A stretch of 38,335 bases of DNA from a bacterium. Its GTDB lineage: Bacteria > Cyanobacteriota > Vampirovibrionia > Gastranaerophilales > Gastranaerophilaceae. Numbering within the stretch: the first letter of the stretch is position 1; every line of letters begins with the position of its first letter. The position numbers were made by a program, and so were the translations under genes. Below, piece after piece: positions 15,323-34,676 of this stretch. A model generated the notes under the pieces. That model was not told the origin of the DNA. It saw nothing but the letters and a program-made list of their open reading frames with translations, and did not search any database. The DNA lies in assembly GCA_017536545.1 (NCBI GenBank), contig JAFXHF010000012.1, positions 1 through 38,335 of the forward strand, in the 5' to 3' direction.

Positions 15323-15340
15323 TTACTATCACAATAGCAA
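15323..15340 (+). promoter_or_regulatory. Shared upstream motif, copy 1 (gene 15404)
   Basis: TTACTATCACAATAGCAA lies 63 bases before the ATG at 15404. The same motif, in the same orientation relative to the gene, lies at a matching distance before the genes starting at 21370 and 29193, and more weakly before 34601. No good -10 box follows at the expected 28-base offset here (CATCTA is poor). Confidence 0.55.
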
Positions 15341-15403
15341 GAATAAAGATTCACAGGTTTTAAAAAATCATCTAAACATTTACCTAAGCGAAAGGATGAT
15401 TAA

Positions 15404-15739
15404 ATGGAAGTAAGTAAAATCTCATTCACTGGTCTTGCTCAAACCAAAAAGGGCAATTTATATAACAAAACAAACACTGGCAAAAACATTGGTGCAATTG
15501 CAGGTTTAGGTGCTGGTGCTTTAATAGCAACAACTTCTACCAAAGCTCAACTTGGAGCTTTAGAAATAGCAACTAAGCTTACAAAAAATGTAATGAAACT
15601 ACCATCAACAACAAAAGTTGTTTTAGCAGCAGGTGTTTTATTATTAGGTCTTGCTGGTAGATTACTAGGAGCTATTCCTGACAGAATTGTAAACAAATCA
15701 AGAGTAGCAAAAGCTGATGCAAAAGCAGAAAACGTTTAA
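15404..15739 (+). CDS. Small glycine/alanine-rich membrane protein, paralogue of 11051-11452
   Basis: A 111-residue protein with AAAGGATG before the ATG. It opens MEVSKISFTG, a short hydrophobic-polar tag containing SFTG that resembles the starts of other lineage-specific proteins in this window. Then come NTGKNIGAIAGLGAGALIA (first weakly hydrophobic segment), a linker, and a second segment (VVLAAGVLLLGLAGRLLGA) leading into the charged tail IVNKSRVAKADAKAE. The same order of motifs is found in the 11051-11452 protein. No enzyme motif is visible. The downstream gene starts 15 bases after its stop, so the two form one unit. The shared upstream motif at 15323 suggests common regulation with other genes of this kind. 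Confidence 0.78.
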   Translation: MEVSKISFTGLAQTKKGNLYNKTNTGKNIGAIAGLGAGALIATTSTKAQLGALEIATKLTKNVMKLPSTTKVVLAAGVLLLGLAGRLLGAIPDRIVNKSRVAKADAKAENV

Positions 15740-15754
15740 GGAGTAACAATATAT

Positions 15755-16969
15755 ATGATTAACCCAATTACAATTAAAGCAGAACGTGAATTATTCAATT
15801 ATTTAACAAAAAACAGCGAAGTAATCGCAAGAGAAGTTCAAGCAATACAAAAGATGGGCTTAACTGAAAAAGATTTATTTATCAAAACAATTATGGAATG
15901 TGCAACATCAGAAGATCCAGCAATAAGAGCTGCAGTTGCAGAAGTACAAAAAGGCTTACGTGGTCAGTTTGACTTAGGGGCAGCAATTCAAAAATTAAAA
16001 AGCGTAATTCCGAATGAGGCGGCCATGATGGAAACTGCAGATGGTGGAAAACTAGTTATGGCAAAAGGCTGGAAAATGCCAGTTCTATTTGAAAACGTTC
16101 CAGGTTTCAAATGGTTAGGTTTTGCCGATGAGCCTGCAAAATTAACAACTGAAGGTATTTGGACTGCAGCTCACGGAGAAAAACCAGCTGTAATTCTTGG
16201 AGGAATTGGAAACTCAAACATTAAACCTGAACAAGTTTTGGGCGGATGTTCTTTAAGCAAAAAAGAATTATCTGCACAATATGAACAAGCTATTGTTGAT
16301 TTCTTCACTCCAATCTTCAAATATTTTGAAGAACTAGGTGTAAATATTAGAGAATCTTTTGGCTTTGGCTTAGCACACAGTTATTGTGGTGTTGACAAAG
16401 CAACAAGAGATTTGGCTGAAACTTTTGGAATCCGAATTGTAGGTACAACTCCAACAGAATATACTCAATATATTAAAGGTACACCAAGAGTTCTTGATAT
16501 TTTAGATGGTGCAGAAGCTATGGTTGCAGATTTCCCTCACCCAACAATTCTTACAAGAAATCTATCTCAGATTAGCGACTATGGTACAACATATGGCAAA
16601 ATTATCGGTGAAAACAATCCAATATTAGTTGCTAACGGTGGTGGACACGCTTGGGTAGAAGACTCAGGAAAAGCAATTATAGGTCTAGATGGCTCAACAC
16701 TTATCCCAGCAAACTTAGTAAAAGATAAATTAGGCTATGTAATTCCAGCTACAACTGGAGAAGGTAAAGACAAAGTTGTAACAAATACAGCTCAACTTCT
16801 TCTAGAAAAAGTTGACGGCAATCCATTTGAAAGATATAAATTCGCATTTGAACAGTATCTACCATCAAGCAGATTAAAAGAAGATATAGCTCAATATGAT
16901 CCTCAAATGGCAATGACTACTCATATCCACGGCTTATTATCAAAAGCAGGACAAATTCCAAAACAATAA
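15755..16969 (+). CDS. Unknown protein, possibly with a SLOG/Rossmann-like nucleotide-binding domain
   Basis: A 404-residue soluble protein I cannot place in a named family. The N-terminal 100 residues are helical. From about 140 the pattern alternates strand and helix with glycine turns: AVILGGIGNS, FGFGLAHSYCGVDKATRDLA, GIRIVGTTPTEY, AMVADFPHPT, then ILVANGGGHAWVEDSGKAI. The order of a GG turn, a CGVDKATRDLAE-like segment and IVGTTP recalls the SLOG (LOG/DprA-like) nucleotide-binding fold, where (V)GGG...G.M...A.aA...G..V.G..P is typical. This similarity is by eye only and the classical LOG motifs are not conserved. AAGGAG precedes the ATG. It is the second gene after the 111-residue membrane protein and is closed by a terminator at about 16989. 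Confidence 0.8.
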   Translation: MINPITIKAERELFNYLTKNSEVIAREVQAIQKMGLTEKDLFIKTIMECATSEDPAIRAAVAEVQKGLRGQFDLGAAIQKLKSVIPNEAAMMETADGGKLVMAKGWKMPVLFENVPGFKWLGFADEPAKLTTEGIWTAAHGEKPAVILGGIGNSNIKPEQVLGGCSLSKKELSAQYEQAIVDFFTPIFKYFEELGVNIRESFGFGLAHSYCGVDKATRDLAETFGIRIVGTTPTEYTQYIKGTPRVLDILDGAEAMVADFPHPTILTRNLSQISDYGTTYGKIIGENNPILVANGGGHAWVEDSGKAIIGLDGSTLIPANLVKDKLGYVIPATTGEGKDKVVTNTAQLLLEKVDGNPFERYKFAFEQYLPSSRLKEDIAQYDPQMAMTTHIHGLLSKAGQIPKQ

Positions 16970-16988
16970 TGGAAACATTAAATAAACA

Positions 16989-17021
16989 AAAAGGGCTCTG
17001 AATACTTCAGGGTCCTTTTTA
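16989..17021 (+). terminator. Terminator of the 15404-16969 unit
   Basis: AAAGGGCTCTGAA pairs with TTCAGGGTCCTTTTT around a 3-base loop, with wobble pairs in the middle, ending in five T residues. Confidence 0.75.
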
Positions 17022-17309
17022 CTATAAATTATCTTTTATAAATCTATGTGCATCAATAACATCATCAGAACTAATCGGAGGTGGTCCTTCAACCATTTCT
17101 AGGGGTAAATGATTATCTGATTTTCTATTAAAATTAAAGACAACTTCACCAAAATCTTTTCCACATTTTTCGCATAATAAATTACAAAGCATCATATCGC
17201 AATCCTGTTCTAAAATTTTAATAGAATCTATCGAAAATTCATTTTTACATCTAGAACAGCAAAGATGCGAGAATAGTGTTTTTATATCATTTTGAGTAAA
17301 TCTTTTCAT
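17022..17309 (-). CDS. Small zinc-ribbon-like protein
   Basis: A protein of 95 residues from ATG 17309 (MKRFTQND). A TTG at 17345 would add 12 residues; neither start has a strong ribosome site. Two cysteine pairs, CSRC in the first third and CEKC further on, with additional single cysteines, look like a zinc ribbon. A conserved-looking tail, PISSDDVIDAHRFIKDN, resembles the PIS.DDV..AH.F..N ending of small proteins found widely in Firmicutes and Cyanobacteria, whose function I do not know. It lies alone on the minus strand, its 3' end abutting the terminator of the preceding unit. Confidence 0.72.
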   Translation of the reverse strand: MKRFTQNDIKTLFSHLCCSRCKNEFSIDSIKILEQDCDMMLCNLLCEKCGKDFGEVVFNFNRKSDNHLPLEMVEGPPPISSDDVIDAHRFIKDNL

Positions 17310-17417
17310 ATCACTTTTTCGTATTAAATTTTGTAAAGTTTTCAACTTTTTAGACTATTAATTGTTATTTTACCCTAAAAAATGGGATTAATATACATGT
17401 AACCAAAGGAGGTTATC

Positions 17418-17510
17418 ATGGCAATCAACTTAATCCTATTCGGTTTCATCGTGTACACTGCATTGATTGTTGTACCAAGCATCTGGGAAGAACTTACCAC
17501 TGAAGGGTAA
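17418..17510 (+). CDS. 30-residue single-span membrane miniprotein
   Basis: A short frame with an excellent ribosome site (AAAGGAGG, 6 bases before ATG 17418) encodes MAINLILFGFIVYTALIVVP followed by SIWEELTTEG and a TAA stop. About 19 N-terminal residues form a membrane helix, followed by Pro-Ser and an acidic amphipathic tail. The quality of the ribosome site, far better than that of the neighbouring genes, is the main argument that it is expressed. It resembles in size the tiny helices of bioenergetic complexes and bacterial regulatory miniproteins, but I cannot match it to a named one. It sits alone between the zinc-ribbon gene (opposite strand) and mnmG. Confidence 0.7.
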   Translation: MAINLILFGFIVYTALIVVPSIWEELTTEG

Positions 17511-17661
17511 TTCAAAATACCAAAACCTTCCCCAGATTAAAGACCGACAAACAGGGTGATTCTAAAATTTTAAATTCGTTTTTTGACATTTAGGAGAGTT
17601 TGAAGAGTTTTTAGTGTAGTTAGTACGTTTATCAAACAAACGTAAAGTTTGTAATGCCAAA

Positions 17662-17691
17662 ATTATAATTCACAAATGTTTGAATTATAAT
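17662..17691. repeat. 11-bp perfect inverted repeat directly before mnmG
   Basis: ATTATAATTCA (17662-17672) and TGAATTATAAT (17681-17691) are exact reverse complements with an 8-base loop, ending 6 bases before the mnmG ATG. A TATAAT-like box lies in each arm. It may be an operator or a leader hairpin. Confidence 0.5.
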
Positions 17692-17697
17692 AAAGTT

Positions 17698-19581
17698 ATG
17701 GATTACATAAACAACAAATTCGATATAATTGTAGTAGGTGCTGGTCACGCAGGCTGTGAAGCAACTTTAGCGTGTGCGAAGCTTGGAATGAAAGTTTTAT
17801 TATGCACGCTTAATGTTGATAATATTGCACTTCAACCTTGTAATCCCGCAATCGGTGGCCCTGCAAAATCAACTTTAGTACGTGAAATTGACGCACTAGG
17901 TGGAGTTATGGGCGAAGTTACTGATGCTACTTACCTCCAGATGAAAGTATTAAATTCATCAAAAGGCCCTGCGGTAAGAGCATTGAGAGCTCAATCAGAT
18001 AAAGCTGAATACACTAGATATATGCGTAATCTAATTGAAAGCAACGAAAACATATACCTAAAACAATGTTGTATAACAGAATTACTGGTAGATGGCGATA
18101 GAATCATCGGGGCAGTTGATGAACTTGGAACTGAGTACAAAGCTCAAGCAATTATACTTACAACAGGGACCTCTCTTGAAGGTCGAATCTTTGTTGGCTT
18201 ACAATCATTTAGTGCAGGCCGATTAGGAGAACAGGCTGCCATCGGACTTTCAGATTCATTACATAAATTAGGAATTGAAACTAAGAAACTAAAAACAGGA
18301 ACTCCAGCCCGTGTTGATAAAAGAACAATTGATTATTCAAAAATGACAATTCAACCTGGAGATGACGAATTAAGTTTCTTCTCATTCAAGCCTAATCGAC
18401 CAATTAGAAAGACTTATCCTTGCTATTTAACAAGAACGACAGAAGAAACTCACAATATTATTAGAGCAAATCTTGATAAATCTCCTATGTACCAAGGTTT
18501 AATACACGGTGTGGGCCCAAGATATTGCCCATCAATTGAAGATAAAATTGTTAGATTTGCATCAAATCCTTCTCACCATATCTTTATTGAACCAGAAGGT
18601 TTAGGAACTTATGAAACATACATCCAAGGTTTTTCAACAAGTTTACCAATGGATGTTCAAGTAAAAATGTTAAGAAGCTTACCAGGATTAGAAAACGCAC
18701 ACATCATAAAACCAGCTTACGCAGTTGAGTATGATTATGTTCCAGCCGTACAAACAACACATTCATTGATGTCTAAAAAAATCAAAGGTCTTTTCTTTGG
18801 TGGTCAAATCAATGGAACAAGTGGTTATGAAGAAGCTGCAGCTCAAGGTCTAATCGCAGGTATTAACGCTTTTAACTATATTAACGGTTCTGAAATGCTA
18901 GAACTTTCTAGAAGTTCATCATACACTGGAACTTTAATTGACGATCTTGTAACAAAAGATATTCAAGATCCATATAGAATGCTAACATCACGATCAGAGT
19001 ACAGATTACTTTTAAGACAAGACAACGCAGATGAACGTTTAATGCCAATAGGACATAAACTAGGTCTAATTGACGACACTCAATTTGCAAGATTTAAAGA
19101 TAAACAAAGACAAATCGAAGATGAAAGAATTCGCTTACAAGAATTAAAAATTCCTGCAAATGAACATACCAACGAAATTTTGGCAAAATATGAAGAACAT
19201 ATCGATAGAGGTATGAGAGCCGCAGAACTTCTAAAACGCCCAAACATCACATACAAAATACTAAAAGAACTTGATAATTCAACAAACGAATTAAACCTAT
19301 CAAAAGAAGTATTTGAACAAGTTGAAGTAATCATTAAATATGATGGCTATATCAAACGCCAAGAAGATCAAGTTGACCAAGCTGGAAAACTTGAGAAGTT
19401 TAAAATTCCAGAAAATATTGATTATTCAAGAATTGAACATATTTCAACAGAAACAAAAGAAAAACTAGAAAAAATCAGACCAAAAACGCTTGCTCAAGCA
19501 GCACGCATCGGTGGAGTTAAACCTGCCGACATCTCAATACTTATGGTTATGCTTGAAAAAAGTACATTTGCTAAGAAATAG
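17698..19581 (+). CDS. mnmG: tRNA uridine 5-carboxymethylaminomethyl modification enzyme MnmG (GidA)
   Basis: A 627-residue FAD-dependent enzyme that, with MnmE, modifies U34 of tRNAs reading NNA/NNG codons. The N-terminal FAD site VVGAGHAGCEA is at about 12-22, followed by LQPCNPAIGGPAKSTLVREI. Family signatures include GPRYCPSIEDKIVRF and GGQINGTSGYEEAAAQGL. The C-terminal helical domain, which contacts MnmE and tRNA, is complete. ATG 17698 is preferred over a TTG at 17680, because the latter lies within the inverted repeat before the gene. No clear Shine-Dalgarno sequence precedes the ATG. The 3' end overlaps the convergent formyltransferase-like gene by 11 bases. Confidence 0.96.
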   Translation: MDYINNKFDIIVVGAGHAGCEATLACAKLGMKVLLCTLNVDNIALQPCNPAIGGPAKSTLVREIDALGGVMGEVTDATYLQMKVLNSSKGPAVRALRAQSDKAEYTRYMRNLIESNENIYLKQCCITELLVDGDRIIGAVDELGTEYKAQAIILTTGTSLEGRIFVGLQSFSAGRLGEQAAIGLSDSLHKLGIETKKLKTGTPARVDKRTIDYSKMTIQPGDDELSFFSFKPNRPIRKTYPCYLTRTTEETHNIIRANLDKSPMYQGLIHGVGPRYCPSIEDKIVRFASNPSHHIFIEPEGLGTYETYIQGFSTSLPMDVQVKMLRSLPGLENAHIIKPAYAVEYDYVPAVQTTHSLMSKKIKGLFFGGQINGTSGYEEAAAQGLIAGINAFNYINGSEMLELSRSSSYTGTLIDDLVTKDIQDPYRMLTSRSEYRLLLRQDNADERLMPIGHKLGLIDDTQFARFKDKQRQIEDERIRLQELKIPANEHTNEILAKYEEHIDRGMRAAELLKRPNITYKILKELDNSTNELNLSKEVFEQVEVIIKYDGYIKRQEDQVDQAGKLEKFKIPENIDYSRIEHISTETKEKLEKIRPKTLAQAARIGGVKPADISILMVMLEKSTFAKK

Positions 19582-20521
19582 TTTCCACATACTTATCAAT
19601 AAACCAACTGGTTAAAAGTGGAAATTTATAAAGCTTCAAGTTTGAAAAACGTACAGCTTTACCGTCTTTGCACACAATAGTTAAAGATCGACGATCAGGA
19701 TATTTAAGCACAATATCTCCAGGATTAGTACTGCCTAAATCCTCATGAACAACTTGCATAGAATAAGGATCGACAACAAAGAAATTCTTTTCATAAGTAA
19801 TATAACTAGGCAAAAATGGATGAAGAGCTTTTACTGTTCTAATTATATCTTCTGAAGCTTGGAATTTAAAATCAATCATCTTCTCTTCACCAGAAATATT
19901 TGGGAAATATGTTGCATATTTTTCAGATTGCTTAATAGGAGTTATCACCTTGTTATTCAAATCTGAGATAAGTTCTGAAACCAGTTTTCTCGCTACTCGA
20001 ACAGATTTTTCTCTAACCTCTTTTGAGGTATCAGAATCAGCGATTTTAACTTTTTCCTGAGCTAAAATTGCACCCGTATCAAAACCCTCATCAACAAGAT
20101 GTAAAGTTACACCAGTTTCAGTTTCACCATGCAAAATAGCTTGAATATATGGATTTGGACCTCTATATTTTGGCAATAGAGATGGGTGAACATTAACCGT
20201 TCCGATAGTTGGAACACTATAGACTTCTTTCTTTAATCGTTCTTTCCACGTACCCACCAAAACCATATCTATATTTTGATTTATTAAAAGTTTTCTAAAC
20301 GCAGGAATATTTGCAGATTTCAACCTAATTTGATTTAACTTTAATTCTTTTATCAATGTTACTTCTGGAGCTGGATTAAATAAATCTTTTATAAACAATT
20401 TAAATCTATTTTCATTCGTATATTCATAGCGAAAAACACCAACAATATCAGCACCTGCATCTTTTGCTGCAAGTACCAAATTCGCTAACATTAACCCCTT
20501 ACCTAAAATAACAACTTTCAT
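19571..20521 (-). CDS. Formyltransferase-family protein (methionyl-tRNA formyltransferase-like)
   Basis: About 316 residues from ATG 20521 (MKVVILGKG); an ATG at 20530 adds three residues, and neither has a ribosome site. The N-terminal Rossmann-like formyl_trans_N domain holds VNVHPSLLPKYRGPNPYIQA with N113 and H115 (numbered from the longer start) and D151 in GFDTGAILA, the N-H-D triad used to transfer formyl from 10-formyl-tetrahydrofolate. The C-terminal 100 residues resemble the Fmt C-terminal domain. The usual Fmt segment RGAAP reads RGPNP here, so the acceptor could be Met-tRNA or another amine such as a nucleotide sugar. A terminator of the preceding gene lies just upstream, implying a separate promoter or read-through. 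Confidence 0.78.
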   Translation of the reverse strand: MKVVILGKGLMLANLVLAAKDAGADIVGVFRYEYTNENRFKLFIKDLFNPAPEVTLIKELKLNQIRLKSANIPAFRKLLINQNIDMVLVGTWKERLKKEVYSVPTIGTVNVHPSLLPKYRGPNPYIQAILHGETETGVTLHLVDEGFDTGAILAQEKVKIADSDTSKEVREKSVRVARKLVSELISDLNNKVITPIKQSEKYATYFPNISGEEKMIDFKFQASEDIIRTVKALHPFLPSYITYEKNFFVVDPYSMQVVHEDLGSTNPGDIVLKYPDRRSLTIVCKDGKAVRFSNLKLYKFPLLTSWFIDKYVETIS

Positions 20522-20540
20522 GAAAATCATTATAAAATAA

Positions 20541-20573
20541 AAAGTGCACCGAGTTCAACTTCGATACACTTTT
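20541..20573 (-). terminator. Terminator of the 20600-21370 gene
   Basis: On the minus strand AAAGTGTATCGA pairs with TCGGTGCACTTT (two wobble pairs) around AGTTGAAC, followed by TTTATTTTA. Confidence 0.75.
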
Positions 20574-20599
20574 TAAAATTTATTTAATAAATTTAGTTA

Positions 20600-21370
20600 C
20601 TATTGTTCATTTTCAATTGCATCAGCCATAGCTAAAGCTGTTCTAACTTGACCTTGAGCAGCTTTTAATTCTGCATAGTTATTAACAGTTTGAGTAGCTT
20701 TTGCTCTTTCGTGGCTTGATGTATGTGCCAAGCTTGTAAACGCTAACATCAATGGAGACCAATCAAGTAAACCTTTACCTAATGATTTCAATGATGATGG
20801 AGCTTTTCCAGCCCATTCGCTTAATTTATTAATCACTTTAGATTCTTTAATAAATTTATCAACTTTTAATTTTTTAGCTTGTGCAACGATTTTTGGACCT
20901 AATTTACCTGCTAATTTATTAACTGCAGCACCACCAGCAAACATTGCACCAATTGAAGCACCAATTGTTAAAATAGTAGATAAAACTGGATGTTTTCTAT
21001 CAAATTCTCTAGCACCTTCGCTATTTTTATTCAATGCACGTTTTCCTGCAAAAACTAAATCAATAGCTGCAAAAGAAGCTGCCCAAGAAGTAGCAGTTTT
21101 TGCAAATTGTTTAAGCATTGGAATTCTACCACCAGTAACAGCTACAGCAGCTGCTGCACCAGCAAATAATGGGATAGACCAGAAAATCGCATTTGAAATT
21201 CTTTTATGTTTTTTGCTGTCAACTTGTTGTTCCGCAATTTGAGCAGCTGTCTGTCTAAGAGCTCTATCATCAGCCTTTGCAAATTCTTGAAGCATTGCAC
21301 GTTGATAATCCATATTACCAAAAGAAGCCTTTGAATTAGCTGATAGATTAGAAACTGAATTAACTTGCAT
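20600..21370 (-). CDS. Lineage-specific membrane protein of unknown function
   Basis: A 256-residue protein with an AAAGGTG ribosome site. It starts MQVNSVSNLSANSKASFGN, a short tag containing SFG, without a classical signal peptide. The next 40 residues are charged and helical. Three to four hydrophobic stretches follow: IFWSIPLFAGAAAAVAV, SWAASFAAIDLVFAG, LSTILTIGASIGAMFAGGAA, and a weaker one near LLDWSPLMLAF. The third begins after a KHPVL motif, also seen (KHPAL) in the small membrane protein at 10733-11029. It probably sits in the cytoplasmic membrane. Its promoter region carries the shared motif plus a good -10 box (21398-21449). It is monocistronic, with a terminator directly after it. 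Confidence 0.8.
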   Translation of the reverse strand: MQVNSVSNLSANSKASFGNMDYQRAMLQEFAKADDRALRQTAAQIAEQQVDSKKHKRISNAIFWSIPLFAGAAAAVAVTGGRIPMLKQFAKTATSWAASFAAIDLVFAGKRALNKNSEGAREFDRKHPVLSTILTIGASIGAMFAGGAAVNKLAGKLGPKIVAQAKKLKVDKFIKESKVINKLSEWAGKAPSSLKSLGKGLLDWSPLMLAFTSLAHTSSHERAKATQTVNNYAELKAAQGQVRTALAMADAIENEQ

Positions 21371-21397
21371 AAAACACCTTTACCCTTTCACACTTTG

Positions 21398-21449
21398 ATT
21401 ATACACATGTAAAAACAGAAAGTAAAATTTTTTGCTATTGTGATAACAA
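21398..21449 (-). promoter_or_regulatory. Promoter with shared upstream motif, copy 2 (gene 20600-21370)
   Basis: On the minus strand TTGTTATCACAATAGCAA (21449-21432) is followed after 28 bases by TATAAT (21403-21398). A weak -35 TTTACT stands 17 bases before the -10, so the motif sits directly upstream of the -35 box, where an activator would bind. The -10 is 27 bases from the ATG. Confidence 0.65.
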
Positions 21450-21497
21450 AAAGACATAAATATTTACAAACTTTTGTCTTTTTTATATTATTAAGCA

Positions 21498-22781
21498 ATG
21501 AGAAAATTTAAAATTCATACAATGGGCTGTAAATCTAACCAATTTGAAAGCTCTATCATAATAGAAAACTTAAAAAAAAACGGACTGGAAGAAGTAAAAA
21601 ATATAAATGATGCAGATGTTTATATTTTAAATTCTTGTTCTGTTACTCATAAAAGTGACAATGAGGCATTATACTTATTACGTTCAGCAAAACACAAAAA
21701 CCAAAATTTAATAACGATCTTAACAGGCTGTTTTGCTCAAATCGAAAAAGAAAATTTATTAGAATATGACTTCATTGATTATGTAATCGGCAACGACGAA
21801 AAATTACGAATGTTTGATTACATCAATTCTGACGAACGTTTCCATGCTAAAGATATTATGAACCTATCAGAATTCAACAAAGTTGAGTTGATTGATACTA
21901 CAAAAACTCGTGCAAGTCTGAAAATTCAAGATGGATGTGACAATCGTTGTACATATTGCATAATATGGAAAGCTAGAGGAAAAAGCAGAAGTGCTGATTC
22001 AAATTTTATTATTGAACAGATCAACAATTTTTCAAAACTTGGATTCAAAGAAGTTGTCTTAACAGGTATCCACATTGGACAATGGGGTAGAGAATTTGGT
22101 CTAACAATACTTGATTTAATAAAAGATATTGAAGAAAAAACAACTATTGAAAGATTTCGTTTGGGTTCGCTTAATCCAACAGAGATTACTGATGAAATGC
22201 TAGAATACTTGAAAAACTCAAAAAAATTCTGTCCGCATTTTCATCTTTCACTTCAATCTGCAAATGATAAAACCCTACGTTCAATGAACAGATTTTATAA
22301 AACTGAATTTTACTTAGACCAAATTGAACAAATCAACAATACATTTGATTTACCATTTTTAGGAAGTGATATCATCGCAGGATTTGCAGGAGAAACCGAT
22401 GAAGACTTTGAGATTACTCGCAATAATTTAGTAAAATCTGGATTAACTCAAATCCATACTTTCCCGTACTCTAAACGTAAAGGAACTATCGGAGAAAGTC
22501 TTCCAGATCAAAACTCTGACGAGGTTAAAAATTACAGAGCTACAGTAATTAAAGACATCTCAAAACTTAAATACGAAGAATTTATCAATAAAAATATTGG
22601 CAAAATTCACGAAGTATTAATTGAAAAAAGACCTGACAAGCATTCGAGCAATTTAAAAGGTGTAACAAGAAATTACTTGACTGTTCAAATAAAATCAAAT
22701 AGAGAAGATCTATTTAATACCCTACAACAAGTTAAACTTATAAAATACGAAAACGGAATTATTTTTGGAGAAATTATATAA
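21498..22781 (+). CDS. mtaB: tRNA (N6-L-threonylcarbamoyladenosine-C2) methylthiotransferase MtaB
   Basis: A radical-SAM methylthiotransferase of 427 residues. The N-terminal UPF0004 domain has the three ligands of the auxiliary cluster at C11 (TMGCKSNQFES), C47 (NSCSVT) and C78 (LTGCFAQ). The radical-SAM cluster is bound by C147, C151 and C154 (CDNRCTYC). The TIM-barrel motifs (LTGIHIGQWG, FHLSLQSAND, GSDIIAGFAGETDEDF) and a short TRAM-like C-terminus complete it. The NSCSVTHKSD and IHIG patterns point to the MtaB (YqeV) group acting on ms2t6A37 rather than MiaB or RimO. The ATG has no strong ribosome site. It ends at a bidirectional terminator shared with secY. Confidence 0.92.
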   Translation: MRKFKIHTMGCKSNQFESSIIIENLKKNGLEEVKNINDADVYILNSCSVTHKSDNEALYLLRSAKHKNQNLITILTGCFAQIEKENLLEYDFIDYVIGNDEKLRMFDYINSDERFHAKDIMNLSEFNKVELIDTTKTRASLKIQDGCDNRCTYCIIWKARGKSRSADSNFIIEQINNFSKLGFKEVVLTGIHIGQWGREFGLTILDLIKDIEEKTTIERFRLGSLNPTEITDEMLEYLKNSKKFCPHFHLSLQSANDKTLRSMNRFYKTEFYLDQIEQINNTFDLPFLGSDIIAGFAGETDEDFEITRNNLVKSGLTQIHTFPYSKRKGTIGESLPDQNSDEVKNYRATVIKDISKLKYEEFINKNIGKIHEVLIEKRPDKHSSNLKGVTRNYLTVQIKSNREDLFNTLQQVKLIKYENGIIFGEII

Positions 22782-22783
22782 TA

Positions 22784-22819
22784 AAAAAGAGGTTCAAGAT
22801 TTAACTTGAACCTCTTTTT
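22784..22819. terminator. Bidirectional terminator between mtaB and secY
   Basis: AAAAAGAGGTTCAAG and its exact reverse complement CTTGAACCTCTTTTT form a perfect 15-bp stem with a 6-base loop. There are A and T tracts on both sides, so it can stop transcripts from both converging genes. Confidence 0.92.
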
Positions 22820-22832
22820 GTTATCTGTTAAA

Positions 22833-25722: not shown

Positions 25723-25752
25723 CACTTGAATTCAATAGAAAAGCTTTTTTTA

Positions 25753-25974: not shown

Positions 25975-25991
25975 AGTTTAATTTTATAATC

Positions 25992-26039: not shown

Positions 26040-26059
26040 ATTAAATTAGGGGATAAAAA

Positions 26060-26782: not shown

Positions 26783-26845
26783 ATATTTACCCTAAAAACC
26801 GTTTGTGCTATTCTTTAGGAAAAGATAATAGATGAGGGACATAAG

Positions 26846-28087
26846 ATGGGACAAACTTTAGTAGAAAAAATTATATCAAATCACGCAGGAAAAGAAGTTA
26901 AAGCTGGTGAATTAGTTATTGCAAACGTTGATGTTTGTGCAGTTCAAGATGGTACTGGACCTTTAACGGTACAAGAATTTAAAAAACTTGGAAAAGAAAA
27001 ACTACACAATCCAGAACGTACAATTCTTTTCATCGACCACGCTTCGCCTAGTCCTAAAAAAGAATTATCAAACATGCACACTATCCTAAGAGATTTTTCT
27101 AAGGAATATGGTGCAGTTTTATCAGAAGTTGGTTCTGGAGTTTGTCACCAAAGACTTGTAGAAACATTTGTAAACCCAACAGAAATTCTAGTTGGAGCAG
27201 ATTCACACACTTGCACATCTGGGGCTTTAGGAGCATTTGCGACAGGTATGGGTTCAACCGACGTTGCTGTTGCCATGGCATTAGGTAAAACATGGTTAAA
27301 AGTTCCTCAAACCTTCAAAATCGTTGTAACTGGCAAATTTAACGAAGGAATTTGCTCAAAAGATTTAATGCTTCACTTAATCGGAATGATTGGTGCAGAT
27401 GGGGCTACATACAAGGCTTTAGAATTTTGTGGCGATACAATTGATAATATGTGCATGGCTGAACGCTTCACTCTTGCTAATATGGCTGTTGAAGCAGGTG
27501 CTAAATGCGGTTTGTTCGTTCCAGATGAAAAAACTAAAGAATATTTAGAATCTCGTGGTAGAGGAGATAAATTCCAAACTATCAAACCTGATACTGATGC
27601 TGTTTATGAAAGAGTAATTGAAATTGATGCGGCAACAATCGAGCATACAGTTTCTTGCCCACACACAGTTGATAACACAAAACTAGCAAAAGACTTAAAC
27701 GATATTAAAGTTCACCAAGTTTTCGTTGGCACATGTACTAACGGCCGTATTGAAGATATGAGAACTGTTGCAAACATTCTAAAAGGCAGAAAAGTTCACC
27801 CAGATGTTAGAATGCTAATCTGTCCAGCATCAAGAGATGTTTACAAACAAGCACTACAAGAAGGCTTGCTAGAAACATTTATCGATTCAAACGCAACAAT
27901 CTTACCACCTGGTTGTGGCCCTTGCGTTGGTATTCATGCCGGCATATTAGCTGACGAAGAAGTTTGTTTGACAACTCAAAACAGAAACTTCCAAGGTCGC
28001 CTAGGTAACACAAAAGGATACATTTATTTGTCGTCACCATACGTTGCAGCTTATTCTGCATTAAACGGTTATATTAGCAACAAATAA
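26846..28087 (+). CDS. leuC: 3-isopropylmalate/homoaconitate dehydratase large subunit (LeuC family)
   Basis: An aconitase-superfamily large subunit of 413 residues, the shorter type also common in archaea. The [4Fe-4S] ligands are C297 (VGTCTNGR), C357 and C360 (PPGCGPCVG). HASPSPKKELSNMH and GADSHTCTSGALGAFATGMG are family hallmarks. It isomerises 2-isopropylmalate to 3-isopropylmalate in leucine synthesis when paired with LeuD. No leuD, leuB or leuA lies beside it, so the small subunit must be elsewhere, and a related substrate (homoaconitate or a methylmalate) cannot be excluded. A GAGGGAC ribosome site supports the ATG. Confidence 0.88.
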   Translation: MGQTLVEKIISNHAGKEVKAGELVIANVDVCAVQDGTGPLTVQEFKKLGKEKLHNPERTILFIDHASPSPKKELSNMHTILRDFSKEYGAVLSEVGSGVCHQRLVETFVNPTEILVGADSHTCTSGALGAFATGMGSTDVAVAMALGKTWLKVPQTFKIVVTGKFNEGICSKDLMLHLIGMIGADGATYKALEFCGDTIDNMCMAERFTLANMAVEAGAKCGLFVPDEKTKEYLESRGRGDKFQTIKPDTDAVYERVIEIDAATIEHTVSCPHTVDNTKLAKDLNDIKVHQVFVGTCTNGRIEDMRTVANILKGRKVHPDVRMLICPASRDVYKQALQEGLLETFIDSNATILPPGCGPCVGIHAGILADEEVCLTTQNRNFQGRLGNTKGYIYLSSPYVAAYSALNGYISNK

Positions 28088-28098
28088 ATTATCTATCT

Positions 28099-29193
28099 CT
28101 ATCTGCGACGCTTACCACCTTCGTAGTTACCGCTAATAATTCTATTTTTGCCACCCAACAAATTTGGAGGTCCAAACACATCTTCCTTAACTTCTAAAGG
28201 TAGAGTATCAATTTTGTCCTGCAATTGAAGTTCCTTAAGCATTTCTCTACGTTGAGTTGACAAACTCTTATCAAATACTGTTGGATTTTCTCCAGTATGA
28301 GCTTTATAGGTTTTCAACAAAGCTTCAGCTTTTTTAGGATCTTCTTTCAATACTCGAACAATAGCCTTAGCTTCTGCTGGATAGAAACCTCGCATAAGAT
28401 CGTTAATAAATGACATATTTCCGCCACTTAATTTGTAAGCATCAACAAGAGCTTGCTCTATGAACTGGATTCTTTGGAATCTTTCCGGACCTAAATTTTT
28501 AACAATTTCGGCTAAAATTTCAGGAGCGTCACATTTACCAATACCTTCAGCAAAGTTATAGCCCCTTGTTGTTAAAATTTGAGATAACTCCATAGGACGA
28601 ACACTATTTACTTTTCTATAATGCTCATATTTTACAAGATTAAACTCATTAAGTCGGGCACTTTCATAATATTTTGCAAATTCTTTTTCTATTTTTTCAT
28701 CTTCCCAGCCCATATGTTTTTTATGCCATTCAGCATAACTTGCAAAGTGTTTTTTTCTAAAATTCTCTAGAGTGAAGTTTTTTGAAACATAGTCAAAATC
28801 ATATTCTACAACATCCACTTCTTTCATTTTCTTCATAAATTTTAAAACATTTTGTTGTTCTTTGGCTTCTAATGAACTTGTAGATTTTAAGAATGCAGTC
28901 ATTTCTTTTATTGATAAAGGTTCACCTTTTTGTAACCCAATTGCTAACAATTCTTTTACCACATCGGACTTACAAAGAGCTGTATCAAAATCACCAAAAG
29001 CTTTTGTTAAAGCTTTAATTTCTTCTGGATTAAATCTATATTCTCCCTTAGCTAATTGAGCAACCTCAAGATAGCGAGGAACCATTTCCATTTCTCTTGT
29101 TAATTCTTCAGCAGATTTAGATGCTGATTTCAAAACACGATTTGTAACATCACCTAAATATGATGTGATTTTTGTTGGGTTCAGTTTAACCAT
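28099..29193 (-). CDS. Helical soluble protein of unknown function
   Basis: A 364-residue protein, almost entirely predicted helical and highly charged, with no signal peptide or membrane helix. The first 60 residues include SASKSAEELTREMEMVPRYL. Several two-helix segments follow (for example IKALTKAFGDF, LSIKEMTAFLKSTSSLEAKE, AEAKAIVRVLKEDPKKAEAL), giving the impression of an alpha-solenoid. The last 20 residues are basic and glycine-rich (NRIISGNYEGGKRRR). A CAGGAG ribosome site precedes the ATG. It follows the GH13 gene by 84 bases but has its own promoter with the shared motif. I recognise no family. Confidence 0.78.
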   Translation of the reverse strand: MVKLNPTKITSYLGDVTNRVLKSASKSAEELTREMEMVPRYLEVAQLAKGEYRFNPEEIKALTKAFGDFDTALCKSDVVKELLAIGLQKGEPLSIKEMTAFLKSTSSLEAKEQQNVLKFMKKMKEVDVVEYDFDYVSKNFTLENFRKKHFASYAEWHKKHMGWEDEKIEKEFAKYYESARLNEFNLVKYEHYRKVNSVRPMELSQILTTRGYNFAEGIGKCDAPEILAEIVKNLGPERFQRIQFIEQALVDAYKLSGGNMSFINDLMRGFYPAEAKAIVRVLKEDPKKAEALLKTYKAHTGENPTVFDKSLSTQRREMLKELQLQDKIDTLPLEVKEDVFGPPNLLGGKNRIISGNYEGGKRRR

Positions 29194-29216
29194 TACAATA
29201 ACTCCTGTACTTTACC

Positions 29217-29267
29217 TACATAATGATTAAAAACATTTTATTAAAGTTATTTGCTATTTCATAACAA
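29217..29267 (-). promoter_or_regulatory. Promoter with shared upstream motif, copy 3 (gene 28099-29193)
   Basis: On the minus strand TTGTTATGAAATAGCAA (29267-29251) is followed after 28 bases by TATGTA (29222-29217), with TTTAAT as -35 17 bases before it. This is the same geometry as at 21398-21449. Confidence 0.6.
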
Positions 29268-29277
29268 AATGTAAAGC

Positions 29278-31020
29278 TTAGTGTTGCTTATAAACTTGTT
29301 TTGTATAGGTTTCAATGTATGGTGTATCGATCTCAAATACGTGAATTCTACCTGGAGCTAAATCCACAGCAATTTCACCTTTTGAAACTTGGAATTTACT
29401 TTCTTCACCATAAGCTGGTAATAAGTTATTCAATTTTTGATTTTCTTTTAATGTCGGTACTTGGACCTTACAAGCAACATTTCTATTTACGTTTTTATTA
29501 GCAAGAACAAGAAGTGTTTTACCGTGTCTATGACGAGCAAATGCAATCACTTGGTCTAGTTTATCTTTTTCTTTTTCAAGAACAATATATGAACCACGTT
29601 TTAGCACATGAGCATAATCATCTCTAAATTTCAATGCAGACTTCATAAATTGACCAATTTGCGGATCATTTCCACCAGGTTTTCTAGAGATATTAAAGAT
29701 ATCTAATTTGCCCCAGTGTGCTTCCATTTCATGGCAATCTGTCATTGTGTCTGTGGAGTATTGGTTTCTATAACTGTACTCATAATAATCCCCAGATTGG
29801 AAACCATCAACAAAATATGGGTTTATCATTGGTAATGTAACTTGAAGCCCTGTTGTCATATTACAGAAAATTTCGCCACCGTGAAACATCGGTGAAATAT
29901 CATCGTGAGTCGCAAATGAACCAATTAAGGATTTTCCACGCTCAACTCGATATGACATATTCAAGTTATCAATTACATAATCGTGTAAGTCCTTAGCAGA
30001 AGTCCATTCGTGGAAAATATGATATTGTCCATAATATGTATCAAAACCAGCACGAAGAGAATCCTCTGGTCTATCATATGGCATATTTGCTTGAGGGGAA
30101 GCATCTTCATATGTATAAGTTTCAGCTAACCATCCAAATTCAGGATCACGTTTTCTTGAATAAGGAATAATAATATCCCAAAACTCAACAGGTTTCGCTC
30201 TGGCTACATCAGCTCTTATACCATCAACACCAGCATCTATCATCAAATCAACAAACTTTCTATGATATTCCAAAAGTTCAGGATTTAAAGTTCTTTTACC
30301 TTCATCTTCCCATGGTTGGAACATTCTAATATCGTGCCAGCCTTGTGGTGTTTTAGCCATCCCGTTACGCTCTTTTGCCATTAATTCAGGTTTTGATACA
30401 TACAAATCATATGATGCACAACTTGGCAAATCTACCATTACCCTAATGTTTCTATCATGACAAGCTTCAACGAAAGCCTTAAATTGTTCAAAATCAGAAC
30501 GAGAATCATTCTTATCTATCAACATCGGATCTAATTTCAACAAATCTTCAGGTGCATAAACAGAACCCGCTATACCTTTTGCACTATTCTTACCAGGAGG
30601 ATTTATAGGTAACACGTGAAGAGTATTTATACCTAAATCTTTCATTTCATCAAGACGTTCAATGGCATTTAAGAACGTACCACATTGCTCCGAACCGTCA
30701 ATATATTCGTTGCCATTCACGTCTTTAGAATTAAATATCCTAGGAACAATAGCCATAATATTTGCACTATTTGTTAGCATTAAAGTTTTTAAATCATTTT
30801 TATAAGGCTTTTTAACTTCATCCGTTTCAGAAACTTTCGTAACTTCTGCAGGTTTATTTACTGCAACAGAATTCACCTTAGCAACATTATCCAAATACTG
30901 CGAAATTAAATTACCACCAAATGTAGGCTGAACAGAATGTGAAAATACAACTTGCTGATTTCTAGAAGCCAAAGCATATTGAGAGTTAAATTTATTTAAT
31001 GTCAAATTCTGTATATACAT
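29278..31020 (-). CDS. GH13 alpha-amylase-family enzyme without signal peptide, GlgE-like features
   Basis: A 580-residue protein with a (beta/alpha)8 GH13 catalytic domain from about 85 to 470 and a beta-rich C-terminal domain. The catalytic triad is recognisable: nucleophile D271 in GIRADVA (with R269), acid/base E300 in WLAETYTY, and D373 in FATHDD. Region I reads VMVDLPSCASYD, lacking the usual Asn-His. The segment after the nucleophile (KPVEFWD, then FGWLAETY and FHEW) resembles maltosyltransferase GlgE by eye, so an alpha-glucan transferase or hydrolase is likely. The N-terminal 80 residues are an unusual extension with VQPTFGGNL and no secretion signal. The start overlaps the stop of the upstream membrane-protein gene (TAATG), so the two are translationally coupled. 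Confidence 0.85.
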   Translation of the reverse strand: MYIQNLTLNKFNSQYALASRNQQVVFSHSVQPTFGGNLISQYLDNVAKVNSVAVNKPAEVTKVSETDEVKKPYKNDLKTLMLTNSANIMAIVPRIFNSKDVNGNEYIDGSEQCGTFLNAIERLDEMKDLGINTLHVLPINPPGKNSAKGIAGSVYAPEDLLKLDPMLIDKNDSRSDFEQFKAFVEACHDRNIRVMVDLPSCASYDLYVSKPELMAKERNGMAKTPQGWHDIRMFQPWEDEGKRTLNPELLEYHRKFVDLMIDAGVDGIRADVARAKPVEFWDIIIPYSRKRDPEFGWLAETYTYEDASPQANMPYDRPEDSLRAGFDTYYGQYHIFHEWTSAKDLHDYVIDNLNMSYRVERGKSLIGSFATHDDISPMFHGGEIFCNMTTGLQVTLPMINPYFVDGFQSGDYYEYSYRNQYSTDTMTDCHEMEAHWGKLDIFNISRKPGGNDPQIGQFMKSALKFRDDYAHVLKRGSYIVLEKEKDKLDQVIAFARHRHGKTLLVLANKNVNRNVACKVQVPTLKENQKLNNLLPAYGEESKFQVSKGEIAVDLAPGRIHVFEIDTPYIETYTKQVYKQH

Positions 31021-33557
31021 TATGCTTTAACCTCCTGATCTTTTTGTGGATTTTTCATTCTACCAAAGAAGAATTGAGCCAACAAAGTTACCCCAGCTAA
31101 AGCTGCTCCAAGCTTGCCAAATAAACTGAACCATTTACCACTATTAAAGCTTTGGTTTGCACGTTTAAAGAACATTTCATTAGGTGAACTACCCATCAAC
31201 AAGAATTTTGACCAAGATGAAGTAGATACTTGTTTTCCATCAACCAAGAAACTTGGTTTAACGAAATATTTATCGCCACCAAACACTTCTAATGCTTGTC
31301 TTCTATAGTTTTGGAATTCAGATAAAATTGAATCTTGAATTCTAGTTCGTGTATCAATATGAGGTTCTCCACCAAACATCAACTTCATAACTGATTGGTA
31401 GAATCCGTTATCGTTAGCTAGTTCTACAATTTCGCCTTCTTTATGCTTACCAAAATATTTATTAATAACTTTTCCACCTTGAACAACAATATCTGAATAG
31501 TCATCCATATTTGGAGAAGGATTACGTCTTTGCCAGAATTTTACAGCAAAATCTGAATTATGACCTTCTAATAAAGTAATCTTAGCAAGTTCGACTAATT
31601 CTTCTTTAACTTCCCTTGGATAACCTTTTAATAACTGAGTAACATCTTCTGAATGCGAAATTCTGTAGTACATATCAGCCAAATTCAAGAATCTGTAGAA
31701 CGAACTTTTAACACCTTTAACTCTATCTGCAACAAAATCAAATGCAATTTCTTTTGATGAAGTTTTAGCTATTCCTGGGAAACCAACAAGATTTTCTCTA
31801 AAGCTTTCAAAACCTAATTGTCTTAAAACCTCACCATATCCATCGTATGTTGAAATAACACGAGATTTATATAAATTTGTATTTGCATCTTGAGTCATAT
31901 CTAGAGATTTTACTCTACCTTGGATTGAAGATAACGCTCTTTCAATTTCACTAACAAATTTTGAATAAGCAGTTTTGTCTGCAGTTATAGACTCAAGCTT
32001 ACTTCTCAATACTTCACTAGCAATTTCACCATCTAATCTTGCTTTCTTAATTTCTTCTGGTGTGAAATTCATAGCTTTGAAAATAATTGATTCAGCTTCA
32101 TTCCAACCATTAGCAAGTGAAGTTTCAGGAGCTTGACCAGCTTTCATATAAGCAAATTTATCTAAAATAAATGTCTTTGCTTTGAATGAATTATTTTCAT
32201 TAGCTAGAGTTCTTAAAACTTTTATAATATTTTCATCAAGAATATTTGCACTTGTAGTTTTTAAAGATTGAACTAACGGAGAATCTGCACCGTGTTCAGC
32301 TGAGTGTACTAATTGTTTTGCTAAGAAATTCAATTTTCTTGCTGCTGGATGATTTGGATTTGCTCTGAGAAATTCTCGAACATTATTATCTAACAAATCT
32401 TGAATAATTTTAGTATGCTCAGAGAAATCATCATAAGCTCCACCTAACAAACTCTTAGCTGATAATGCTTGTTTGATAGAATCAGCATTTGGGATAATTC
32501 TAGCTAATTCATCTTCTGACAATGCTACAGTTTCGAAGGTAGATTTTAATGCACCTTGAATTCCTTCAATATTAGAATCTGTAAGTCTGAACTTGCCATC
32601 ACCTAACAACATTCTGTCCAAATCTCTTCTCAAGCCTTCTGATAACATATAATCTAAACCTTGAGAAAGATTATGATGAATAGCATCAACAATTTCTGGA
32701 GTTACAGCTTTTCCTGAATTTGCAGTTAAAATTTCATCTAAAGCTTTTATATTTTCCGTAAAATCAAACTTAGAAATTTCTTGAGTAAAGTTTGTCATCA
32801 AGTCATTTGCTTTTTTAGTTGTCCTTTGGTCAAGATATGCAGCCATTGGTTTTTCAAGAGCATTACACATTAAAGCACTCATTAATGGAGTAGCAACACC
32901 AGCTGTTAACATCCACAATGTATTATTCTGTAACGCTATTTTTCTCATTTTTTCTTGGATAAATTCACGTCTGTTTGGAATATCTTTAGGAACATTCAAT
33001 CTGTCACCAATTTTGTTTATTTCATCATCTGAATACAAATCCCATGGAATGAATTGGTGATCTTGATAGAACATTTTCTTTCTACCAAAACTATCTTCAT
33101 ATTCTTGACGGACATTAACACCGTGAATCAATTTAGCAGGTAATTGAATAAACAACTTAGGCCAAAAATCCATTGCAGCAAAGAAAGTACCTAAACCAAT
33201 AAATTCAAAAACTTTTGTCATTGGCGTTTGCTTTCTAGTAAACAAATAAGCAGCAATGGCCAAACCACCAAGTTTCATACCTACATCGTTCAAACGTCCC
33301 AATTCATGATCGTTTGCATCACCTTTTACAGCGTGCTTAAAAGCTTTCCAATCGTAATGTACATCTTTACGAAATTCAGATGGTAAATCCAAAAGACTTT
33401 TTCTTACTAATTTACCATTACTTGGCAAAGGTTTAATAAACGTACGATTAGATAATTCTTTATGAACATCAAACTCTCTAACAGCTTTATCTGAATGATA
33501 CTGCTGAGAAGCTGGATGTGAAGAAACGTATGACTGGATTAAATTCGTTGTTTTCAT
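31020..33557 (-). CDS. Large membrane-associated protein of unknown function, homologue of 33558-34601
   Basis: An 845-residue protein. Hydrophobic segments occur near residues 92-106 (GMKLGGLAIAAYLF), 115-130 (FEFIGLGTFFAAMDF), 215-230 (LWMLTAGVATPLMSALM) and 820-838 (LGAALAGVTLLAQFFFG). Between them lies a long helical, charged region of about 580 residues, presumably cytoplasmic. The N-terminal third shares an order of motifs with the preceding gene product: a KLFI..P.K...G segment, a WDL(Y/L) segment, then a hydrophobic segment before KP. The two therefore appear to be divergent homologues. The ATG directly follows the upstream TAG (TAGATG) and the stop overlaps the GH13 start, a tight three-gene unit. 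No enzymatic motif seen. Confidence 0.82.
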   Translation of the reverse strand: MKTTNLIQSYVSSHPASQQYHSDKAVREFDVHKELSNRTFIKPLPSNGKLVRKSLLDLPSEFRKDVHYDWKAFKHAVKGDANDHELGRLNDVGMKLGGLAIAAYLFTRKQTPMTKVFEFIGLGTFFAAMDFWPKLFIQLPAKLIHGVNVRQEYEDSFGRKKMFYQDHQFIPWDLYSDDEINKIGDRLNVPKDIPNRREFIQEKMRKIALQNNTLWMLTAGVATPLMSALMCNALEKPMAAYLDQRTTKKANDLMTNFTQEISKFDFTENIKALDEILTANSGKAVTPEIVDAIHHNLSQGLDYMLSEGLRRDLDRMLLGDGKFRLTDSNIEGIQGALKSTFETVALSEDELARIIPNADSIKQALSAKSLLGGAYDDFSEHTKIIQDLLDNNVREFLRANPNHPAARKLNFLAKQLVHSAEHGADSPLVQSLKTTSANILDENIIKVLRTLANENNSFKAKTFILDKFAYMKAGQAPETSLANGWNEAESIIFKAMNFTPEEIKKARLDGEIASEVLRSKLESITADKTAYSKFVSEIERALSSIQGRVKSLDMTQDANTNLYKSRVISTYDGYGEVLRQLGFESFRENLVGFPGIAKTSSKEIAFDFVADRVKGVKSSFYRFLNLADMYYRISHSEDVTQLLKGYPREVKEELVELAKITLLEGHNSDFAVKFWQRRNPSPNMDDYSDIVVQGGKVINKYFGKHKEGEIVELANDNGFYQSVMKLMFGGEPHIDTRTRIQDSILSEFQNYRRQALEVFGGDKYFVKPSFLVDGKQVSTSSWSKFLLMGSSPNEMFFKRANQSFNSGKWFSLFGKLGAALAGVTLLAQFFFGRMKNPQKDQEVKA

Positions 33558-34601
33558 CTAACCCACCACACTTTCTTTATTAGGATTTAACATTTCTTGA
33601 CCAGTAACATTTGAAGGTTTTTTAGTAATGTGGAATGTATTTAATAAACCTAAAACTGTTGTTAGTGCAGCCGCACCAATTACCAATTTACCAGAATGTT
33701 TACCAATCTTAGTCACAGCATCAGGATCACCTTTGTACAAAGATTTTGCACTATCTACAAAACTTTGACCAAATACTTTCAGCGAATGAGCAAATTCCCT
33801 ACCCTTCCAGAATTTTAATGTAGCAACATTAAAGTAATTTTCCCAAGGTTTTTGGAATGCTAAAGCAACACCAGTAGCTGCCCACATGAAAGAGGAAATA
33901 CTTTTAGCTAATTTTGACTTAATAAGTACTTCTTTATAAATCGGTTTAACTTCTTGGTCTGAATCATTAAGATTTTCACCAAAACCATTTTTCTTAGCAA
34001 TTTTGTCATATCTATAATTCAAAGGTTTATTATCTTCAGGTTTTGCATATAACAAATCCCATCTAGTGAAATCAACACTTTCTCCTACTTTATGATATTC
34101 AATACTTGTACTATCATCACTCTCATTTTCTTTCAATAGATAATTAACCTTTCTATAAGGTAACTCAGTATCAATACCAGTTTTCCATTTAACAGGATAT
34201 GTAATAAATAACTTAGAAACTTCTTTAAATAAAGCATAAAATAAAACACCTAAAGCCATTTTATTTCCAAGCTTCCTAGATGCGGCAACTTTATCAAACG
34301 GTAGAAATGATGGATTTACAGAGTTAAAAATTGACATTAGCATAACACTACCAACAATATATGGTACGGTACCCATTGTTAAAAATTCATAAAAATTGGA
34401 GTTTTTACTGCCAGCTAAACCTTTTGCAGGGTAAATAGTAAACGCTTTTGTGAATTTATCCATTGCAATTTTAGATTTAGTCACAATACCACAATCAAGC
34501 AGCTCATCTTCTTTATTAATTTGCTCATTAGATTCGCCTTCCGGCTTCGCCCTGAATGCTAAATTATTTTTCCCACTAATACTAGTAATTGGTGATATCA
34601 T
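33558..34601 (-). CDS. Multi-span membrane protein of unknown function, first gene of the GH13 operon
   Basis: A 347-residue protein beginning MISPITSISGKNNLAFRAKP, a tag-like start without signal peptide. Hydrophobic segments are visible around VPYIVGSVMLMSIFNSV, GNKMALGVLFYALF, ISSFMWAATGVALAF and LVIGAAALTTVLGLL. The segment KLFITYPVKWKTGIDTELPY, later RWDLLYAKPED, and the hydrophobic segment ending FQKPWE align in order with the next gene product, so the pair are homologous. A GGAG ribosome site supports the ATG. It is the promoter-proximal gene of a three-gene unit ending in the GH13 enzyme, and probably forms a membrane complex with its neighbour. Confidence 0.82.
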   Translation of the reverse strand: MISPITSISGKNNLAFRAKPEGESNEQINKEDELLDCGIVTKSKIAMDKFTKAFTIYPAKGLAGSKNSNFYEFLTMGTVPYIVGSVMLMSIFNSVNPSFLPFDKVAASRKLGNKMALGVLFYALFKEVSKLFITYPVKWKTGIDTELPYRKVNYLLKENESDDSTSIEYHKVGESVDFTRWDLLYAKPEDNKPLNYRYDKIAKKNGFGENLNDSDQEVKPIYKEVLIKSKLAKSISSFMWAATGVALAFQKPWENYFNVATLKFWKGREFAHSLKVFGQSFVDSAKSLYKGDPDAVTKIGKHSGKLVIGAAALTTVLGLLNTFHITKKPSNVTGQEMLNPNKESVVG

Positions 34602-34625
34602 GATAACTCCACATTTCTCATCATT

Positions 34626-34676
34626 AGAATACTCGTCAAGATTTTTTTTTGTTATCTATATTGCTTATATTTACAA
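34626..34676 (-). promoter_or_regulatory. Degenerate copy 4 of the shared upstream motif (GH13 operon)
   Basis: On the minus strand TTGTAAATATAAGCAA (34676-34661) lies 59 bases before the ATG at 34601, with TATTCT (34631-34626) as a -10-like box 29 bases after it. Only the outer TTGT and AGCAA halves match well, so this copy is tentative. Confidence 0.35.

Follow-up and report, generated by a model that had tools for sequence, protein, structure and literature searches.

Do the lineage-specific genes in this stretch of DNA share an upstream signal and, if so, what kind of signal is it? The window (the whole 38,335-nt stretch analyzed; contig C11 of a 1.90-Mb assembly that is 99% complete; 33% GC) was originally predicted to carry four copies of an 18-mer about 60 bases before gene 1 (15404), gene 2 (20600), gene 3 (28099), and gene 4 (33558, the GH13 operon). 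Copy 1 (15323–15340, + strand, two mismatches) and copy 2 (21432–21449, − strand, exact) were found at the predicted places, but copy 3 (29251–29267, − strand, TTGTTATGAAATAGCAA) is shorter by one base and copy 4 (34661–34676, − strand, TTGTAAATATAAGCAA) is a poor match. The distances to the start codons were 63, 61, 57, and 59 bases, as predicted except for copy 3, which had been placed at 58. A −10 hexamer 28 bases past the motif, claimed for copies 2 and 3, is present at copy 2 (TATAAT, 21403–21398), whereas copy 3 has TATGTA there (3/6). At up to three mismatches, 0.14 matches to the 18-mer are expected per window, and two were reached in 1 of 100 shuffles. Genome-wide, the same threshold gave 15 matches versus 8 for the reversed pattern, an enrichment that is at most weak. 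Furthermore, the left part of the 18-mer (TTGTTATC) was not conserved across orthologs when the footprints upstream of genes 2–4 were compared. Because this half is not conserved, we rejected a palindromic operator of the Rex-like dyad type. As a unit, the 18-mer is neither conserved nor clearly enriched.

The prediction was nevertheless right that a signal is shared before lineage-specific genes: it is wider than could be seen from the window, but it is not the 18-mer. We modeled 777 upstreams of 130 nt from the window, 448 kb of its own genome, 340 kb of a same-genus species (G006), and 200 kb from each of two other families (G047 and G041), with genes called by a simple script. A two-component model assigned 59% of the upstreams to class I, an ordinary sigma-A-type promoter (TTgaaa...TGnTATAAT), and 15% to class II, a two-block element composed of TAGCAA and GTTTTAAT. 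The class II consensus reads a.TaGCAAat, a gap of 11 (28%) or 12 (61%), and atgtTTTtATAt, which places the hexamers 17–18 nt apart. Fitting of the two blocks by EM gave an LL of 141 versus 48–72 in six shuffles, and a single class II model reached 226 in the four pooled genomes (58–72 in three shuffled sets) and 157–164 in the own genome alone (58–70 in shuffles). In single-genome fits, class II did not rise above the shuffles for G047 or G041, and the G006 model drifted to class I. With class II as a second class, the fit improved by 228 nats over class I alone; second classes grown from random seeds, however, gained 104–123 nats, so that about half of the gain is overfitting and the held-out tests weigh more; the class II seeds were picked after the orthologs had been looked at. 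When class II was divided further, into IIa (GGCAATT...ACTTTATAT) and a second group, IIb (TAGCAAAA...GTTTTAAT), the gain was 130 nats, little above random seeds. Other words were also enriched in own-genome upstreams, namely TGTTACA (in 16 versus 4.2 expected), TTGTAACA (10 versus 1.7), and TTGTGATAA (6 versus 0.6), and are perhaps sites of further regulators.

For the held-out tests we froze the motif model, re-estimated the background for each set, and called sites at a class II posterior >0.6. Among same-genus upstreams, class II was called in 9/105 from new stretches of the own genome and in 9/86 and 13/77 from two unseen species. The pooled count (31/268) exceeded those of the reversed sequences (6/268; Fisher p = 2e-5), the other strand (10/268; Fisher p = 9e-4), and intragenic sequences (16/528; Fisher p = 4e-6). 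A held-out sample from a third other family (G048) had class II in 11/131 upstreams, compared to 2 reversed, 4 on the other strand, and 4/254 intragenic. The two families included in the training gave 16/142 (G047; controls 4 and 7, intragenic 3/280) and 15/119 (G041; controls 0 and 4, intragenic 6/264), and an outgroup from another order (G059) gave 3/89 versus controls of 3 and 2. A model trained on the genus only, whose spacing drifted, called 20/392 upstreams in the three other families, which is above the reversed (6; p = 0.008) and intragenic (15/798; p = 0.003) controls but not above the opposite strand (12; p = 0.21). The exact pattern TAGCAA-N13..16-GGTTTTA had four matches in the genome versus none for its reversed control, and class II starts at a median of 65 nt before the ATG (63.5 for class I). 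Class II is very probably real in the genus and is likely real in the other families as well.

In the window, class II exceeded a posterior of 0.6 in 4 of the 24 scored upstreams (11051, 15404, 20600, and 28099), which bears out the claim that housekeeping genes lack the signal. Three of the four genes predicted to be controlled are in this group. The −35-like block 1 of gene 1 (AATAGCAAGA, 15333–15342, + strand; posterior 0.96) extends across the 3′ end of copy 1 and is followed by a −10-like block 2 (AGGTTTTAAAAA, 15355–15366, + strand), the site being among the matches to the exact two-block pattern; the gene (15404–15739, + strand) encodes a 111-aa lineage-specific protein with the N-terminus MEVSKISFTG. 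Gene 2 (20600–21370, − strand), which codes for a 256-aa lineage-specific protein starting with MQVNSVS...SFG, has block 1 (AATAGCAAAA, 21430–21439, − strand; posterior 0.92, also seen in orthologs) over the 3′ end of copy 2 and block 2 (CTGTTTTTACAT, 21407–21418, − strand) assigned from the model and the orthologs. From its sequence, the −10 hexamer of copy 2 (21398–21403, − strand) is part of an overlapping class I promoter, with TTTACT at 21421–21426, that lies about 10 nt further downstream. The sites of gene 3 (28099–29193, − strand; a 364-aa lineage-specific protein) are block 1 (AATAGCAAAT, 29249–29258, − strand; posterior 1.00), overlapping the 3′ end of copy 3, and block 2 (ATGTTTTTAATC, 29225–29236, − strand), assigned from the model and an ortholog. 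A weaker site (TTAATCAATT-N12-AATACTTTATTA, 11507–11540, − strand; posterior 0.70) precedes gene 11051 (11051–11452, − strand), whose 133-aa lineage-specific product is a paralogue type of 15404. None of these four proteins has a Pfam match.

The fourth gene is different. A conserved GATAACAAAA-N11-CGAGTATTCTAA element before gene 33558 (34624–34656, − strand) had a class II posterior of 0.17; because of this value and the absence of calls in its orthologs when class I competes (0/20), we excluded copy 4 from class II, and the GH13 operon probably lacks the element. The same upstream contains a repeat with a 10-nt period (TTGTTAAAATTTGTAAA, 34670–34686, − strand) that is kept in many orthologs and is presumably like cyanobacterial HLR1/RpaB sites. 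OmpR/RpaB HLR1-like repeats (TTGTAAANNNTTGTAAA) were rejected as the signal, as genome matches with up to three mismatches numbered 1926 versus 2103 for the control.

Orthologs of the four genes were also compared. A match to gene 2 was present in all 36 same-genus relatives searched. Most of its upstreams (30 loci including its own) retain TAGCAAAAA, TTTAC, and GTTTTTAACATGTGTATAAT but differ from one another in the left half of the 18-mer. In three genomes (G025, G003, and G006; loci L028, L033, and L034) the TATAAT is lost but the class II blocks (TAGCAAA...GTTTTAAAAT) are kept. The upstreams of gene 1 homologues (22 loci out of 30) and of the single close ortholog of gene 3 also suggest the two-block layout, as do those of the gene 4 orthologs, although these fit it poorly. 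Without class I competing, class II was called in 27/29 gene 2 upstreams (in one case at a different position), 13/16 gene 1 homologues, 2/2 for gene 3, and 5/20 for gene 4; when class I was allowed to compete, the counts were 23/29, 13/16, 2/2, and 0/20, respectively. These counts leave out loci with remote or partial homologues (14 of 30 for gene 1) or with partial matches (4 of 6 for gene 3), one gene 2 locus of 30 (L044), and, for gene 4, 8 loci of other families and 2 with <130 nt of upstream sequence. The training set had included two gene 1 upstreams out of the 16 and, for each of the other genes, the own copy; 28 of the 29 gene 2 upstreams were outside it. Near gene 2, a leader (GTGTGAAAGG..AAGGTG, 21371–21397, − strand) is also strongly conserved among orthologs. 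Gene 21498 (MtaB-like by eye) is divergent from gene 2 and has a promoter reading TTTACA-N17-TATTAT (21463–21491, + strand); the footprints of gene 2 show the −35 region of this promoter to be conserved.

We then asked what the proteins encoded behind class II sites have in common. In the own genome (n = 35; posterior ≥0.9, site within 100 nt), 31 of the 35 class II proteins had no Pfam match. The 38 Pfam families found in the set come from exactly four proteins, in agreement with NCBIfam: a HEAT-repeat protein (13 families), an FtsY-like protein (22; probably miscalled as class II), an M16 peptidase (2), and an ADP-ribosyltransferase-like protein (1). By comparison, 107 Pfam families were listed for 35 random class I proteins. 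Across all samples, a hydrophobic N-terminus was found in 2/87 class II versus 96/413 class I proteins, and the start M[QKENDYM][IVLF] in 24/87 versus 43/413. The enrichment of SFG/TFG-type N-termini, proposed as a check of the original prediction, held in the own genome and in the pooled samples but not elsewhere. With an earlier PWM at score 8, the test was positive in the own genome (17/51 versus 22/270) and negative in G006, G047, and G041. A frozen regular expression for the tag gave 11/29 versus 39/292 in the own genome (p = 0.0017) and was not significant in G006 (2/11), G047 (2/9), G041 (2/6), or the held-out sets (0/3, 0/2, and 1/3 tagged). Pooled, an SFG/FTG-like tag was present in 14/87 class II and 20/413 class I proteins (p = 0.0006). 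A looser form of the tag was also more common in the interior of class II proteins (10/59 versus 24/319; p = 0.03), and part of the excess is therefore compositional. Some small families that look alike by eye, such as the MGVGAEDYIDKML type, bear class II in different families of the order (G000, G023, G041, and G047). The class II gene for the ADP-ribosyltransferase-like protein (L118:1699-2595) codes for a product matching the ADP-ribosyltransferase exoenzyme domain (PF03496; E 1e-11).

The own genome has eight genes with the sigma factor domain PF04542: RpoD (over cut-off), three group 2-like, two ECF-like, one FliA/WhiG-like (over cut-off), and one SigF-like. The family scan covered seven of the eight proteins, and the remaining group 2-like protein (L167) was placed by eye. 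The best NCBIfam models for the SigF-like protein, both below cut-off, were SigB/F/G (143 of 234 bits) and SigF (127 of 261 bits); its counterparts in G041 and G047 scored 191 and 204 of 261 bits, respectively, with the SigF model, also below cut-off. Clear matches to the SigF-like protein (E <1e-28) were present in 56 of the 60 genomes, with weaker matches only in G005, G049, G052, and G055. Its best relatives of solved structure are annotated just as 'sigma factor' (1l0o, a sporulation SigF). In all seven loci of the order that we read (L177:9170-11086, L297–L301, and L303) the SigF-like gene immediately precedes a prepilin peptidase-like gene (three of these peptidases checked by Pfam); in G059 such a gene shares its strand but is separated from it by two genes. 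The own sigF-like upstream scored as class I (0.98) and not class II (0.00), and thus bears no sign of autoregulation. Pseudopilin-like upstreams also mostly lack class II (>0.5 in 1/14) and score as class I (12/14).

The FliA/WhiG-like sigma appears to have canonical sites of its own. Sites of the form TAAA-N14..16-G[CA]CGAT[AT] were ≤160 nt from a start in 3/6 cases in the own sample and 1/1 in the new stretches, and a canonical sigma-28-like site precedes a flagellin gene of G041, neither result having a chance control. The fit of the FliA/WhiG-like sigma to these sites leaves the SigF-like protein as the best candidate for class II. By this elimination, and by the resemblance of class II to the cyanobacterial SigF core, there is a somewhat better than even chance that the SigF-like protein is the class II sigma. 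Genes for FliE, FliF, and FlhA (FHIPEP) are encoded at L218:4157-10052 on contig C3 of the own genome. FHIPEP is present in 59 of the 60 genomes and absent from G059; among the copies listed, scores of ~860–890 bits came only from other families, and this genus had ~700–726 bits. The FliE/FliF/FlhA set may constitute an export apparatus of flagellar origin with no flagellum.

Known promoter classes provide points of comparison. The promoters of pilA1 and sigF recognized by the group 3 sigma SigF of Synechocystis carry TAGGC (−32) and GGTAA (−12) (PMC2758279). Class II is alike in having two blocks ~20 nt apart, a TAG-GC-like upstream block, and a GG-rich start of the downstream block, yet its consensus (a.TaGCAAat / atgtTTTtATAt) is similar and not identical to the TAGGC / GGTAA core, its sequence being TAGCAA / GTTTTAAT. 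Also as in cyanobacteria, the SigF-type sigma is encoded beside type IV pilus genes. Pseudopilin genes are known SigF targets in cyanobacteria, whereas here neither they nor the sigF-like gene are class II and the class II targets are lineage-specific proteins. The class II set likely works like a SigF regulon, although it is not filed as one. FliA/WhiG promoters, like class II as predicted here, depend on an alternative sigma and occur in these genomes too. However, the FliA/WhiG (sigma-28) consensus is TAAAGTTT-N11-GCCGATAA, with a GCCGATA-type downstream block; the blocks of class II differ, and sigma-28-like sites stand separately. One such site in the window (TAAAGTTTTAATAAAACTGTGCCGATA, 1689–1715, − strand) is 70 nt before gene 602–1645, whose product (MGMSASQARF...) has no Pfam match. 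The sigma-B/sigma-F promoters of Gram-positive bacteria (GTTTAA-N12..15-GGGTAT) are read by a related sigma family and, as in their case, the −10 block of class II starts with G, but its −35 block is TAGCAA. Titles and abstract openings in open-licence PMC yielded no report of class II-like promoters or sigma regulons in this lineage.

The reading that we favor, at slightly more than even confidence, is that class II is an alternative-sigma promoter before lineage-specific genes of the genus, and more weakly of three other families, that is likely read by the SigF-like sigma. Three of the four originally predicted sites would then contain its −35-like half, with the other half (GTTTTAAT) 17–18 nt downstream, and no separate role would fall to the left half of the 18-mer. 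The SigF-like sigma would recognize class II, RNA polymerase would start a few bases past GTTTTAAT/ACTTTATA, and the genes would be switched together. It is rather unlikely that class II is instead the core promoter of another sigma (either ECF-like, group 2-like, or the FliA/WhiG-like). The presence of eight sigma genes, whose links to class II are all predictions, and the lack of class II before the sigF-like gene leave room for such an assignment, but canonical TAAAGTTT-N11-GCCGATA sites before other genes, including a flagellin gene of G041, fit the FliA/WhiG-like sigma. ECF promoters have a GGAAC-type −35, which class II lacks, as it does the TATAAT of group 1/2 promoters.

Explanations that rely on sigma-A fare worse. 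Class II could be a sigma-A promoter with a poor −10, its −35 replaced by an activator at TAGCAA, given that TTTTTAT/TTTTAAT shares A/T-rich letters with TATAAT and that class I and class II elements overlap at gene 2; we consider this improbable, as both class II blocks are retained with their spacing fixed at 17–18 nt and a class I promoter beside class II is not above shuffle level. Outside the class II site, such a promoter was found in 9/64 class II upstreams, compared to 149/601 other upstreams with an equal span masked and 175/777 mononucleotide shuffles. The same count and the unconserved left half speak against the original proposal that an activator binds the 18-mer, or the dyad in it, just upstream of a sigma-A −35. 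The TATAAT 28 nt past copy 2, which many orthologs conserve, agrees with that proposal, but the 18-mer is little enriched genome-wide and most class II sites have no sigma-A promoter, making it very improbable. A general UP element was likewise rejected: no common TAGCAAA was found when 135 of 238 upstreams, a selection that favors class I, were aligned by their TATAAT-like box. Lastly, class II could reflect chance and overfitting in A/T-rich upstream DNA, since models started from random seeds improve in likelihood too, 2% of the reversed and 3% of the intragenic controls exceed the cut-off, and the genus-only model transfers weakly to other families. We give this very little credence in view of the held-out enrichment in same-genus upstreams, the presence of class II in 23 to 27 of the 29 gene 2 upstreams (28 of them outside training), and the sharply different gene classes behind class II and class I.

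More tentatively, class II may belong to an order-wide SigF-type circuit that would serve specifically to switch on the private proteins of these non-photosynthetic gut relatives of cyanobacteria (from its proteins, the genome probably belongs to Candidatus Gastranaerophilales), a reading whose odds are lowered by the weak transfer of the genus-only model. The targets of such a circuit would be proteins without known domains or a Sec signal that often start with M[QKEN][IVLF] and carry an SFxG-like tag. Some class II proteins could perhaps be exported or host-directed, as an ADP-ribosyltransferase-like protein and an M16 peptidase are encoded among them. If class II is indeed an alternative-sigma promoter, it would provide a promoter code for a gut order of which little is in culture, and with it an entry point to the many uncharacterized genes of that order. 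It would also single out, from DNA alone, co-regulated proteins without known domains, and would mean that a cyanobacterial-type group 3 sigma has been re-purposed in the non-photosynthetic sister lineage.
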